64,000 nucleotides of DNA from Brevibacterium sp. ZH18 (GTDB lineage: Bacteria; Actinomycetota; Actinomycetes; Actinomycetales; Brevibacteriaceae). The stretch's first letter is position 1. Each line of letters begins with the position of its first letter. Where the stretch lies: NCBI RefSeq assembly GCF_022748595.1, contig NZ_JALDSX010000007.1, forward strand, positions 1-64,000, written 5' to 3'. This document shows positions 33,550 to 37,303 of the stretch, piece by piece. Both the position numbers and the translations under genes were made by a program. The notes beneath the pieces are model-generated. The model saw only the letters and a list, made by a program, of their open reading frames with translations. It had not been told where the DNA came from and did no database searches.

Positions 33550-34713
33550 ATGCCCAAGCCTGCGATCATCGGCTGGTCCCACGGGAAGTTCGGGCGCTCC
33601 GAATCACCGCTTCCGGAGATGATGGCCGACGTCGCACGCGGCGCGATCGCAGATGCCGGGCTCGAACCTTCCGACATCGACGTCATCCATGTCGGTGTCT
33701 ACAACAATGGTCTCTACCGCCAGGGATTCGAAGCAGCACTGCCTGGCGTCATCTTCCCCGAACTCGCTCTCACTCCGGCCCACCGCCACGAGAACGCTTG
33801 CGCCACCGGCTCCACCGCAGTCTTCGCCGCGCACGACTCCATCGCTGCCGGACGCCATAAGACCGCTCTGGTCATCGGGGCCGAGCGTATGACCCAGGTC
33901 TCCGGCCATGAAGTCAATGAAGTCCTCCTCAGTGCCAGCTATCGGGAAGAGGAAGAGCACTACAAATCCTTCGCCGGCGTCTTCGGCGAGATCGCCCGCC
34001 AGTACTTCGACCGCTACGGCGACCACTCGGAAACCCTGGCCAGGATTGCCGCAAAGAATCATGCAAACGGCTCACACAACCCGCTCGCCCACATGCAGAA
34101 GGACCTCGGTTTCGAGTTCTGCAACACGGTCTCTGAAAAGAACCCCTACGTTGCCGAACCCCTGCGCCGCACGGACTGCTCGATGGTCTCCGACGGGGCT
34201 GTCGCCCTGGTCATGGCCGCCGAGGATGTCGCCGCCTCCGCGCCCCAGGCCGTGACCTGGCGCGGCATGGGAAATGCCAACGACGTGTTGCCCCTGTCGA
34301 GGCGTGACCCGTTGGAATTCGCCGGCAGCCGCGCCGCCATGAACCAAGCACTGACTGCTGCGGGCATCGGCATCTTCGACCTCGACCTGCTGGAGACCCA
34401 CGACTGCTTCACCATCGCCGAACTCCTCGAATACGAGGCCTTCGGTCTCGCCGAACCCGGCCAGGGTCACCGCCTCCTCGCCGAAGGAGCCACCGAAGTC
34501 GGCGGCCGCCTTCCGGTCAACGCCTCCGGCGGACTCAAAGCCAAGGGCCACCCGATCGGCGCCACCGGAGTCTCCATGCACGCACTCGCCGCTGCCCAGC
34601 TCACTGGCCGCTCACCTGGCATCCAGATCCAAGACGCCGAACTCGCCGGCGTGTTCAACATGGGCGGAGCCGCCGTGTCCAACTTCGCCTCCATCCTCGA
34701 GCGCACGCGCTGA
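33550..34713 (+). CDS. SCP-x-type thiolase (acetyl-CoA acetyltransferase-like)
   Basis: A 387-residue thiolase of the SCP-x/non-canonical branch. The nucleophilic Cys lies in ENACATGSTAV, the second active-site region is ETHDCFTIAE and the His-containing motif is GGLKAKGHPIGATG; the ending has FNMGGAAVSNF. It would cleave a 3-oxoacyl-CoA to acetyl- or propionyl-CoA. It is the first gene of an operon with an acyl-CoA ligase, SDR enzymes and a TRAP importer; its stop overlaps the ligase start (TGATG). It is not of the PaaJ type, so it cannot simply be taken to replace the deleted paa thiolase. Confidence 0.9.
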   Translation: MPKPAIIGWSHGKFGRSESPLPEMMADVARGAIADAGLEPSDIDVIHVGVYNNGLYRQGFEAALPGVIFPELALTPAHRHENACATGSTAVFAAHDSIAAGRHKTALVIGAERMTQVSGHEVNEVLLSASYREEEEHYKSFAGVFGEIARQYFDRYGDHSETLARIAAKNHANGSHNPLAHMQKDLGFEFCNTVSEKNPYVAEPLRRTDCSMVSDGAVALVMAAEDVAASAPQAVTWRGMGNANDVLPLSRRDPLEFAGSRAAMNQALTAAGIGIFDLDLLETHDCFTIAELLEYEAFGLAEPGQGHRLLAEGATEVGGRLPVNASGGLKAKGHPIGATGVSMHALAAAQLTGRSPGIQIQDAELAGVFNMGGAAVSNFASILERTR

Positions 34714-36470
34714 TGCGGGCCATCTCCCCGGCGTCGCCGGCGAAGGGCTTCACTCCAACGCCTCGGCGCGGAGTCAACGTCGCCCACTTCCTCACCCAGA
34801 CCGCCCGCCGAATCCCCGATCACACAGCAGTCATCGACGACGACCACGGCGTGCGCTGGACCTGGAAAGACCTCGAAGAGCGCGCCGAAGCACTGGCTCT
34901 CGAACTCCAGTCGAGTGGCGTGGGCCGCCGCGACACGGTCCTTCTCGTCTCGGCCAACCACGCTGAGGTGATCCAATCGTTCTGGGGCATCATCCGTTCC
35001 GGAGCCGTCATCGCCCCACCCAATGCCGCTCTGTCGAACGAAGAGCTGCTGAGCATCTGCGCCGATGTCGCCCCTGCAGCCGTCATCGCGGATCGGGCGC
35101 ATGCTGACTTCGTCGAAGAGCTGCAGAGTGCTGGATTTACGGGAGCAGTCCTGTGGATCGGCGACCTGCCACATGAGCCGTCTTCATCGAGCGGACCACT
35201 TACCGCCGAGGGGACCAGTTATAGCCGGTCCCCTCGACGAGAAGTGGTCCGCTCGACGGGCGCTGCGGGAGACTTCGCGGTCGAGGAGGATGATCCCTGC
35301 TGGTACTTCTTCACCTCGGGGTCCACGGGCAAACCGAAGGCGGCGACGTTCACGCACCGCCACCTCGGCGCCGTGCTAATGAATCATCGCTGCGATCTCT
35401 TCCCCACCGAGGATGAGAATGGTGCCTCGCTCGTGCTGGCGCCGCTCTCGCACGGGGCCGGCATCCACATGCTGGGGCAGGTCTTCGGCGGCACTCCCTC
35501 GGTCATCCACCCTGGTGGCAAGGTCGACCCGACCACGCTGTGGGACTCGATCGACGACTACGGGATCACCAATGCGTTCACCGTCCCGACCATCCTCAAC
35601 CGCATCGTCGCAGGCTACCCGGCTGATCGCGGCCCCGACGATCACACCCTCAATCGGGTCATCTACGCGGGCGCTCCGATGCTCGCCGCCGACCAGGCCC
35701 GGGCGCTCGATCGGCTGGGTCCCTGCTTGGTGCAGTACTTCGGACTCGCCGAGGTGACCGGTGCGATCACGATCCTGCGCCCCGAGGAGCACGGGATGAT
35801 TCCGGTCGACTCGGCCGGCATCGGCACGTGCGGTCGCGCCCGGACCGGGGTCGAGATCATCATCCTCGACGATGCCGGCACCGAGCAGGCAGCAGGTGAG
35901 CAGGGCGAGGTCTGCGTCGCGGGACCCACCGTCTGCTCCGGCTATTTGGGGCGGGCCGACGCGAACACCGAATCGTTCGCCCACGGGGTCTTCCACACCG
36001 GCGACATCGGCTACCTCGACGAGCGCGGCTTCCTGTTCCTCACCGGGCGCAAGTCCGACATGTACATCTCCGGCGGGTCGAACGTGTACCCCCGCGAGAT
36101 CGAGGAGCTCCTCCTCACCGACACCGAGGTGGCTCAGGCCGTTGTTGTGGGTGTGCCCGATGCGCAGTGGGGAGAGATCGGCGTGGCCGTGATCGAGGCG
36201 ATCGTGCCTGGAACCGCAGGGGCGTCGTCGAAGGGAGGCCAGCCGAGCGAGCGCACCTCCGTTGAAGGTGCAGACGGACAGGCAGTTGCGGAGCCGGTCG
36301 CCGAAGAGCGTCGGCAGAGGTTGCGGGCACTGTGCAAGTCCGCGTTGGCACCGTACAAAGTGCCCAAGGAAATCCACTTCGTCGAGGAGATGCCGGTGAC
36401 GGCGTACGGGAAGCTCGCTCGCAAAGAGATCAAAGCTGAATACTCACAGGGACGAGGGACCGCACGATGA
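34713..36470 (+). CDS. Acyl-CoA ligase (class I adenylate-forming) with in-frame palindrome insert
   Basis: A 585-residue acyl-CoA synthetase. P-loop YFFTSGSTGKPKAA (about residues 198-211), adenylate-binding YFGLAEVTGAI, hinge TGRKSDMYISGGSNVYPREIE and the catalytic Lys in TAYGKLARKEIK are all present. Residues 159-182 (SSGPLTAEGTSYSRSPRREV and flanks) are encoded by a 70-bp nested palindrome in the loop before the P-loop; this stretch has no family counterpart. A second low-complexity insert (about 505-530) sits in the C-terminal domain. All catalytic motifs survive, so the enzyme may be active. It likely activates the acid imported by the TRAP system. Confidence 0.9.
   Translation: MRAISPASPAKGFTPTPRRGVNVAHFLTQTARRIPDHTAVIDDDHGVRWTWKDLEERAEALALELQSSGVGRRDTVLLVSANHAEVIQSFWGIIRSGAVIAPPNAALSNEELLSICADVAPAAVIADRAHADFVEELQSAGFTGAVLWIGDLPHEPSSSSGPLTAEGTSYSRSPRREVVRSTGAAGDFAVEEDDPCWYFFTSGSTGKPKAATFTHRHLGAVLMNHRCDLFPTEDENGASLVLAPLSHGAGIHMLGQVFGGTPSVIHPGGKVDPTTLWDSIDDYGITNAFTVPTILNRIVAGYPADRGPDDHTLNRVIYAGAPMLAADQARALDRLGPCLVQYFGLAEVTGAITILRPEEHGMIPVDSAGIGTCGRARTGVEIIILDDAGTEQAAGEQGEVCVAGPTVCSGYLGRADANTESFAHGVFHTGDIGYLDERGFLFLTGRKSDMYISGGSNVYPREIEELLLTDTEVAQAVVVGVPDAQWGEIGVAVIEAIVPGTAGASSKGGQPSERTSVEGADGQAVAEPVAEERRQRLRALCKSALAPYKVPKEIHFVEEMPVTAYGKLARKEIKAEYSQGRGTAR
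35187..35256. repeat. Nested palindromic element inserted in a coding region
   Basis: Outer arms TCGAGCGGACCACTT (35187-35201) and AAGTGGTCCGCTCGA (35242-35256) are a perfect 15-bp inverted repeat. Inner arms CGAGGGGACC (35207-35216) and GGTCCCCTCG (35227-35236) are a perfect 10-bp inverted repeat around a 10-base loop. One half recurs at 1-40. The ORF reads through it without a stop. It resembles small palindromic mobile elements found in genes of other bacteria in principle, but no family match was checked. Confidence 0.9.
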
Positions 36471-37303
36471 GCGATCTGAGCGGAAAAGTCATCATGGCCA
36501 TCGGCTGCGGCACGCCTGACGGGCAGGTCAACAACGGCTTCGCCGCAACTCAGGCATTCCTTGCCGCCGGTGCGCGCGTGTGCATCGTCGACCGGGACGC
36601 CAACGCCCTCGACCAGGCTCGGGCGGCACTTACCTCGGACCGCCTCGGCGAAGGTGATGGCGCTGATCTGGGCTCACGGCTGACCACGGTCGTCGCCGAC
36701 GTCGGGGACGAGGACTCGCTCTCGGCGGCCTTCGGCCACTGCGCGCGGACCTTGGGTGATCCGACTGTCCTGCACTACAACGTCGGGATCGTCGTCAACG
36801 GCGGCCTCGATGTCCTCGAGACGACTGCCTTCGCCACGGCCCTCGACATCAACCTCACCGGGGCGTTCTCCGCGATGAAGCAGGCTCTGCCCTACATGCG
36901 AAAGGCCGGCGGCGGGTCGATCATCACGGTCTCCTCGGTGGGCGGGATGCGCTACATGGGCTATGACTATCCGGCCTATGCCGCGTCGAAGGCGGGGCTG
37001 ATCGAACTGACGAAGGTTGTCGGTGCGCAGTACGCGTCCGAGGGCATCCGGGCGAATTCGATTGCTCCCGGGCTCATCGAAACTCCGCTCATCCACAACT
37101 CGATCAGCGGTCACTACGGCTCGGTCGAGGAGATGCTCGCGGCGCGGCACGCACTCTCACCGACAGGGAAGATGGGCCAGCCCGAGGATGTTGCGAAGCT
37201 CGCGGTCTTCCTCGCCTCCGAGGACTCGAGCTACATCAACTCCACGCTCATCCCGGTCGACGGGGGACTCGTGCACTTCGCCGGCTCGCCGCCGAAAGGA
37301 TGA
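36467..37303 (+). CDS. Short-chain dehydrogenase/reductase, variant cofactor loop
   Basis: A 278-residue SDR with catalytic residues Ser (TVSSVGG), Tyr and Lys (YPAYAASKAG). The N-terminal cofactor loop reads GCGTPDGQVNNG, not the usual TGxxxGIG, and the NNAG motif is replaced by YNVG. The C-terminus has the typical PEDVAKLAVFLASEDSSYINS and VDGGL. It would oxidise a hydroxyacyl intermediate. The start overlaps the ligase stop (ATGA). It lies in the operon between the ligase and the TRAP genes, and a second, canonical SDR follows the transporter. Confidence 0.87.
   Translation: MSDLSGKVIMAIGCGTPDGQVNNGFAATQAFLAAGARVCIVDRDANALDQARAALTSDRLGEGDGADLGSRLTTVVADVGDEDSLSAAFGHCARTLGDPTVLHYNVGIVVNGGLDVLETTAFATALDINLTGAFSAMKQALPYMRKAGGGSIITVSSVGGMRYMGYDYPAYAASKAGLIELTKVVGAQYASEGIRANSIAPGLIETPLIHNSISGHYGSVEEMLAARHALSPTGKMGQPEDVAKLAVFLASEDSSYINSTLIPVDGGLVHFAGSPPKG

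Follow-up and report, generated by a model that had tools for sequence, protein, structure and literature searches.

An in-frame palindrome in a Brevibacterium acyl-CoA ligase gene, probably a solo member of a REPIN-like family whose partner protein is unrelated

An acyl-CoA ligase gene of Brevibacterium sp. ZH18 is read through a long nested palindrome, which raises the question of what this element is and what has kept it inside an enzyme gene. The window analyzed here is the whole stretch of 64,000 nucleotides from this strain (contig NZ_JALDSX010000007.1, positions 1 to 64,000). The complete palindromic element occupies positions 35183-35260 (no strand is assigned to it or to its parts) and was matched by model R1, built without any ligase copy, over 78 positions, scoring 83 bits on each strand (E = 1.4e-18 and 1.5e-18). 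On direct reading, the 15-bp left outer arm (box A, 35187-35201) is the perfect complement of the right outer arm (35242-35256) and the 10-bp left inner arm (box A', 35207-35216) that of the right inner arm (35227-35236), the start of which was also seen as repeat D1; the nested palindrome of the preliminary description (35187-35256) is thus real. Over their full 35 nt, the two arms (35187-35221 and 35222-35256) are 86% complementary. RNA folding of the region yielded -60 kcal/mol for the plus strand and -67.8 kcal/mol for the minus strand (z = -8.5 and -12.1). As none of 200 dinucleotide shuffles was as stable, the palindrome is not a chance product.

The ligase gene (34713-36470, plus strand) encodes 585 amino acids with an AMP-binding domain (E = 2.7e-66). 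Its reading frame stays open through the palindrome, as had been claimed, and the element sits immediately before the YFFTSGSTG motif. Orthologues without the insert, which the preliminary description had proposed to align, do exist: the loop measures 180 nt in G052, where the element is present, vs 108 nt in G045 and G005, where it is absent, a difference of 72 nt.

A second copy of the element was located at positions 1-44, corresponding to model positions 35-78. Base 1 of the window is base 1 of contig C104 of the source genome (G000; 126 contigs, 3.8 Mb). This copy had been described as half an element in opposite orientation; it is indeed the same element, but appears as a half only since the contig end cuts off its 5' part, and its orientation carries little meaning because the element is nearly symmetrical. 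That the palindrome is repeated rather than a one-off insertion was borne out by further copies in the source genome, where 12 untruncated copies were placed, the window copy among them. Five other contigs (C76, C32, C100, C61 and C53) likewise start within such palindromes, so that the draft assembly was probably broken at the hairpins. A TPP riboswitch (RF00059, E = 1.6e-9) adjoins one solo palindrome, at L112:1831-1934 on the minus strand, near G000:C22:93966.

By DNA search, copies were detected in 16 of 57 Brevibacterium genomes. Using a covariance model made from 35 copies, ligase copies excluded, the family was recovered from 38 of the 57; matches were counted on both strands, copy number being about half the number of matches. 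Following a pattern search, 10 of 11 matching stretches were Brevibacterium records. Each element consists of four boxes, a direct pair followed by an inverted pair, every arm thus carrying two direct YCGAG-headed boxes. The conserved ends read C[AG][TC]CGAG and sequence conservation dies out some 2-3 nt beyond them. Paired cells had changed on both sides in 81 cases vs 48.6 in shuffles, and the covariation score was 0.208 vs 0.136, with 0/500 shuffles as high for either measure; covariation collapsed when the partner column was slid by 1-3. Pairing is kept through compensatory changes across the copies of the family.

No palindrome family was matched in an Rfam scan of five loci; two matches to mir-5880, far below the gathering score, were discarded as hairpin look-alikes. 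A pattern match in an Opitutus MAG was rejected as a family member, being an unrelated array of tandem and inverted repeats (L159:5239-5822) that contains GGACCACTT and AAGTGGTCC by chance or convergence. Viral contigs gave no match for the palindrome pattern. Among the listed titles and abstracts of open-licence papers, no description of this Brevibacterium palindrome family was found, and the available sections of a paper on the mobilome of Brevibacterium aurantiacum treat IS elements and islands and mention no such palindromes (PMC6579920).

The placement of copies was determined using a home-made codon-bias gene caller. The first 57 copies, orthologous ones included, comprised 31 in convergent gaps, 17 in tandem gaps, none in divergent gaps and 7 inside a gene, with 2 unassigned. 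A census of 49 copies from five genomes, leaving out G017 (a near-copy of G016) and copies truncated at contig ends, gave 30 convergent, 16 tandem, 0 divergent and 3 inside-gene positions; all 16 tandem copies were closer to the upstream stop codon. Other gaps of at least 80 bp at the same loci (n = 70) were convergent in 16, tandem in 32 and divergent in 22 cases, and divergent gaps therefore account for 22/70 of these vs 0/46 for the intergenic copies (Fisher p = 4e-6). Another palindrome family accounts for an R1 match in G017 (L220, E about 1e-5), so that matches weaker than about 1e-6 are unsafe; with the eight copies weaker than approximately 1e-6 removed, the census retained 25 convergent, 13 tandem and 0 divergent copies. 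All inside-gene copies lie in this ligase (7/7 of the 57, from different species, and 3/3 of the 49). With the usual position being just after genes, the coding ligase copy is an exception, and the earlier likening to a rickettsial-type family of coding palindromes did not hold: a single host gene is known.

In 11 single-chromosome genomes, copies leaned towards dnaA and were scarce near the terminus, 3 of 42 lying past 0.7 of the dnaA-to-terminus distance (KS p = 9e-5, in a test that counted orthologous sites more than once and used five rounded chromosome lengths). Neither target-site duplications nor a clean occupied/empty pair were found, and the empty-looking ligase sites may be deletions. 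In a comparison of G017 (L218:1541) with G016 (L236:1550), homology begins exactly at the palindrome, at 98.7% to its right and without alignment over 300 bp to its left; a rearrangement breakpoint thus falls on the palindrome.

The palindromes might be bidirectional transcription terminators or hairpins that protect the 3' ends of mRNAs, as their position just after genes and their very stable folds would allow; the gene lying between some palindrome pairs (see below) would then be incidental. We consider such a role unlikely. The canonical intrinsic terminator was rejected for want of a T-tract after the stem: the 10 nt outside both ends of 57 copies contain 254 T in 1140 bases, and no terminator-like site was detected in 34600-36600. 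An RNA hairpin under selection is expected to tolerate GU pairs and not AC mispairs. On the transcript strand, however, 43 GU pairs and 46 AC mispairs were counted in 21 tandem copies, and 9 and 16, respectively, in eight ligase copies. GU being about as frequent as AC, together with the missing T-tract, favours recognition or correction that acts on DNA rather than RNA. In addition, the boxes are alike in sequence between copies, for which a plain terminator has no need.

The history of the ligase copy was followed in 30 ligases from the 57 genomes. An intact palindrome is present at the same place in seven (G000, G056, G052, G028, G041, G047 and G002); that of G024 is altered but carries compensatory changes, 27 of 35 pairs being retained. 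Four are decayed (G021, G003, G019 and G039), G007 is doubtful and the remaining 17 lack the palindrome. A ligase tree built without the loop has insert-bearing genes on the deepest branch of each of its two main clades (G000 and G041), so that an ancient gain followed by repeated in-frame loss is likely, as is a single origin of the palindrome in the ligase. At least eight changes are required on this tree when G007 is omitted.

Within the seven intact copies, amino-acid identity is lower in the insert than in the gene (0.71 vs 0.89), while identity at fourfold sites is higher (0.92 vs 0.65). Of the codons with a fourfold site in every one of the seven, 8/8 are invariant in the insert vs 61/210 in the gene (p = 5e-5, or 0.04 once the choice of 7 of 12 is allowed for). 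The five altered copies, among them G024, showed no such extra conservation (0.58 vs 0.69); for all twelve insert-bearing ligases, the values are 0.73 vs 0.64. Paired positions covary in these twelve orthologues (0.169 vs 0.096 when shuffled, 0/500 as high). Taken together, high fourfold identity, lower peptide identity and covariation indicate that, where the palindrome is intact, it was maintained by selection on, or copying of, the nucleic acid, the peptide being less well kept. Genomes with an intact ligase copy also hold more family matches than those with a decayed one (Mann-Whitney p = 0.04; p = 0.0016 for intact vs decayed, G024 and absent pooled, three outgroup ligases left out).

A candidate driver was found outside the window, where palindromes 1.08-1.36 kb apart (start to start) flank members of one gene family. 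Partner-gene loci were those fetched for containing palindromes. Leaving out the G017 orthologue of the G016 unit, twelve non-redundant palindrome-gene-palindrome units were obtained (G035, G043, G006, G003, G041, G049, G056, G016, G047, G000a, G000b and G017b), which by their neighbours represent five genomic sites. Both palindromes are complete in 11 of the 12, the second palindrome of G000a being cut by a contig start; G032 has a broken partner gene with 243 readable amino acids and one palindrome seen. The partner proteins are 318-333 amino acids long and 47-93% identical, with many invariant residues. In six unit pairs, identity is higher at codon positions 1 and 2 (0.76-0.96) than at fourfold sites (0.41-0.85), which indicates purifying selection on the frame.

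All 12 partner proteins are matched by PADLOC AbiEi models (best E = 3.4e-13); the match in G035 spans residues 85-194. Pfam, NCBIfam, PHROGs and PDB sequences gave no significant match; Pfam DUF559 was hit at E = 0.13, below the cut-off, on one partner fragment. The C-terminal region contains many invariant polar residues, and its motif order (E..GE, PQ, RxDF, VEFHG..KY, LVWxDL) is one that we take, by eye, to be DUF559/Vsr-like; in G017b, one motif residue is changed. With no significant database match, the putative nuclease assignment depends on this motif order. AbiEii or any other second gene was not called inside the units read. Partner genes were not encountered in the window, at the ligase loci, at the loci of other genera, on viral contigs or on the plasmids searched. 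From these sequences, the driver of the family is probably this small gene between two palindromes, likely encoding a DNA-binding nuclease.

In 11 units, the 5' palindrome ends 64-145 nt upstream of the partner start codon, a position that also speaks against terminators. The 3' palindrome starts 4-182 nt past the stop codon, unless the partner frame enters it, as in 5 of 12 units (L179, L260, L079, L214 and L219), where the final codons of the gene lie within the palindrome. At G035 (L260:2518-4514), four palindromes of the CGAGACC type, unlike that of the window, lie within 2 kb around the partner gene. Close pairs without a partner gene were seen in G056 and G047, around a gene judged MFS-like by eye, and in G004 (L063, 1.5 kb). 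Pairs with similar flanks, 1.5-1.74 kb apart, are situated at L061:2371-4183, L062:2271-4077 and L063:2178-3766; in L061 and L062, the MFS-like gene stands between IclR-like and BCCT-like genes, an arrangement suggestive of a segment that was duplicated or that inserted at the palindrome.

Protein and palindrome have diverged together. Across the twelve units, partner-protein identity is correlated with palindrome-arm identity (Mantel r = 0.81, p = 2e-4), shared descent accounting for part of this correlation since the units come from five sites. Stronger evidence is provided by the source genome itself, in which two partner proteins sharing 58% identity go with two palindrome types (arm identity 0.52); a pair of the second kind (b) also occurs in G017. 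Solo palindromes were assigned to the best-fitting of all twelve units. Five of nine solos of the source genome, including the window copy, fit unit a best and two unit b, while one fits the b-type unit of G017 and one none well. In G035, three additional copies match the G035/G043 type, and the single further copy in G006 matches its own unit. A finer fit is not supported: in G016, G056, G041, G047 and G049, only 2 of 34 solos are closest to the unit of their own genome and many are nearer to unit a of G000. Solos of the b type also occur in G021, G028 and G056, with no b-type gene in the loci examined.

Unit and solo are alternative states of one gene gap. Between convergent genes judged by eye to encode a decarboxylase-like protein and an ABC transporter, a whole unit is present in G003 and G041, the broken unit in G032, a single palindrome in G016 and G017, and a single palindrome with one extra gene in G028. 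Loss of the gene through recombination between the palindromes on either side, or its insertion at a palindrome, would account for these states.

Our preferred explanation, to which we assign a probability of roughly 0.6, is that the window element belongs, as a solo copy, to a REPIN-like four-box family whose partner is an AbiEi-like gene with a DUF559/Vsr-type (PD-(D/E)XK)-looking C-terminus. The AbiEi-like part would bind the CGAG-headed boxes, in the way AbiEi antitoxins bind inverted repeats, and the nuclease-like part would act on the bound palindrome, as duplex or extruded hairpin. Repair or copying could then spread and homogenize solo palindromes, insertions persisting mainly right after stop codons. 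The ligase copy may owe its survival to one open frame in the element and to its location in a loop of variable length. For this putative system as a whole, we infer mobility, DNA binding and catalysis.

Two further explanations were considered. The palindromes might be immobile operators of an AbiEi-like protein that does no more than bind DNA, dispersed to serve a regulon or chromosome organization. AbiEi antitoxins bind several inverted repeats upstream of their own genes, and one of them binds as many as four (PMC7319586), so that DNA binding is a plausible property of the partner; the position of the 5' palindrome and the lean towards dnaA would also suit operators. Solos, however, shun divergent, promoter-bearing gaps (0/46), presence varies between related genomes, as in the ligase, and an operator-only role leaves the invariant polar C-terminal residues unneeded, so that we regard it as quite improbable. 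Even less credence is given to a MITE derived from a classical IS with its two ends joined: although the pair of direct boxes in each arm is reminiscent of multi-site IS ends, seven genomes showed no facing arms around a transposase-sized gap besides the units, and the enclosed gene matches no transposase family. Single-arm matches were noted at G047:C23:48579 and G052:C23:4480, and IstB gave four matches in the source genome, one of which, within a 551-aa frame, exceeded the cut-off.

Taking the REPIN-like reading, the nearest known system in kind is REPIN-RAYT. REPINs are symmetrical extragenic palindromes with compensatory changes, accompanied by a single-copy partner flanked by repeats (PMC3116915). 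The Brevibacterium palindromes are similarly dispersed, mostly extragenic and symmetrical, with compensatory changes and a repeat-flanked partner gene (12 units), but the protein is unrelated, boxes begin with CGAG instead of GTAG and placement at gene ends is strong. RAYT/Y1_Tnp (PF01797) was found in 0/57 Brevibacterium genomes, with matches in 5/14 control genomes; the family is hence not a member of REPIN-RAYT, though it works like one. In-gene repeats are known in the GTAG and CGTC classes of REP, the latter, with 8-9 bp stems and CGTC tags, having no known transposase (PMC3733652). As with CGTC REPs and rickettsial elements, the palindromes are short and some lie in frame inside genes. 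Unlike CGTC REPs, they have 35-nt arms, four boxes and no CGTC tag; unlike rickettsial elements, they occupy one host gene rather than many unrelated ones, apart from partner frames entering the 3' palindrome (5/12). The partner protein resembles type IV toxin-antitoxin AbiEi in its PADLOC matches, but differs in the lack of AbiEii inside the units read, the extra C-terminal domain and the dispersal of palindromes. Its C-terminal motif order recalls DUF559/Vsr endonucleases, and a DUF559 protein has been placed in the PD-(D/E)XK superfamily (PMC12907096).

REPINs with their tyrosine transposase give an outline understanding of how short palindromes persist. What is unusual here, judged from sequence comparison, is a REPIN-like family with an unrelated partner that is probably DNA-binding and possibly nucleolytic. 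If so, the REPIN life style would have arisen more than once as a strategy, seemingly agentless repeats such as CGTC REPs would gain a testable agent, AbiEi-like proteins that carry an additional C-terminal domain would have a suggested role, and a conserved in-frame enzyme insert would be explained as the fossil of such a system. More tentatively, and at somewhat less than even odds, CGAG four-box palindromes may form a third tagged class beside GTAG and CGTC. They would be kept and dispersed by a resident AbiEi-like nuclease of the Vsr type, itself derived from an antitoxin-like, self-binding regulator, and other Micrococcales-type genera would be expected to have related families, each with its own box sequences.

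In an order-wide sample of 297 genomes, the model matched 23, comprising 14 Brevibacterium and 9 of other genera. G257 and G177 contain several copies each, of like build, with their own box sequences and CGAG starts; as the model favours CGAG, this likeness is partly ascertainment. No relative of the partner gene was found in 19 stretches of 20 kb around other-genus palindromes. The 21 copies from other genera were convergent in 10 cases, tandem in 10 and divergent in none, with 1 not placed.

The other palindrome family mentioned above, of the CTCGGTTTGCAGACGAGG type, is situated at L220:1513-1590 (G017:C32:353312), and further matches occur in G016 and G017. At one such site, the flanks are 44 bp apart in G016 (C1:229521-229565) vs about 200 bp in G017, so that one genome looks empty there.
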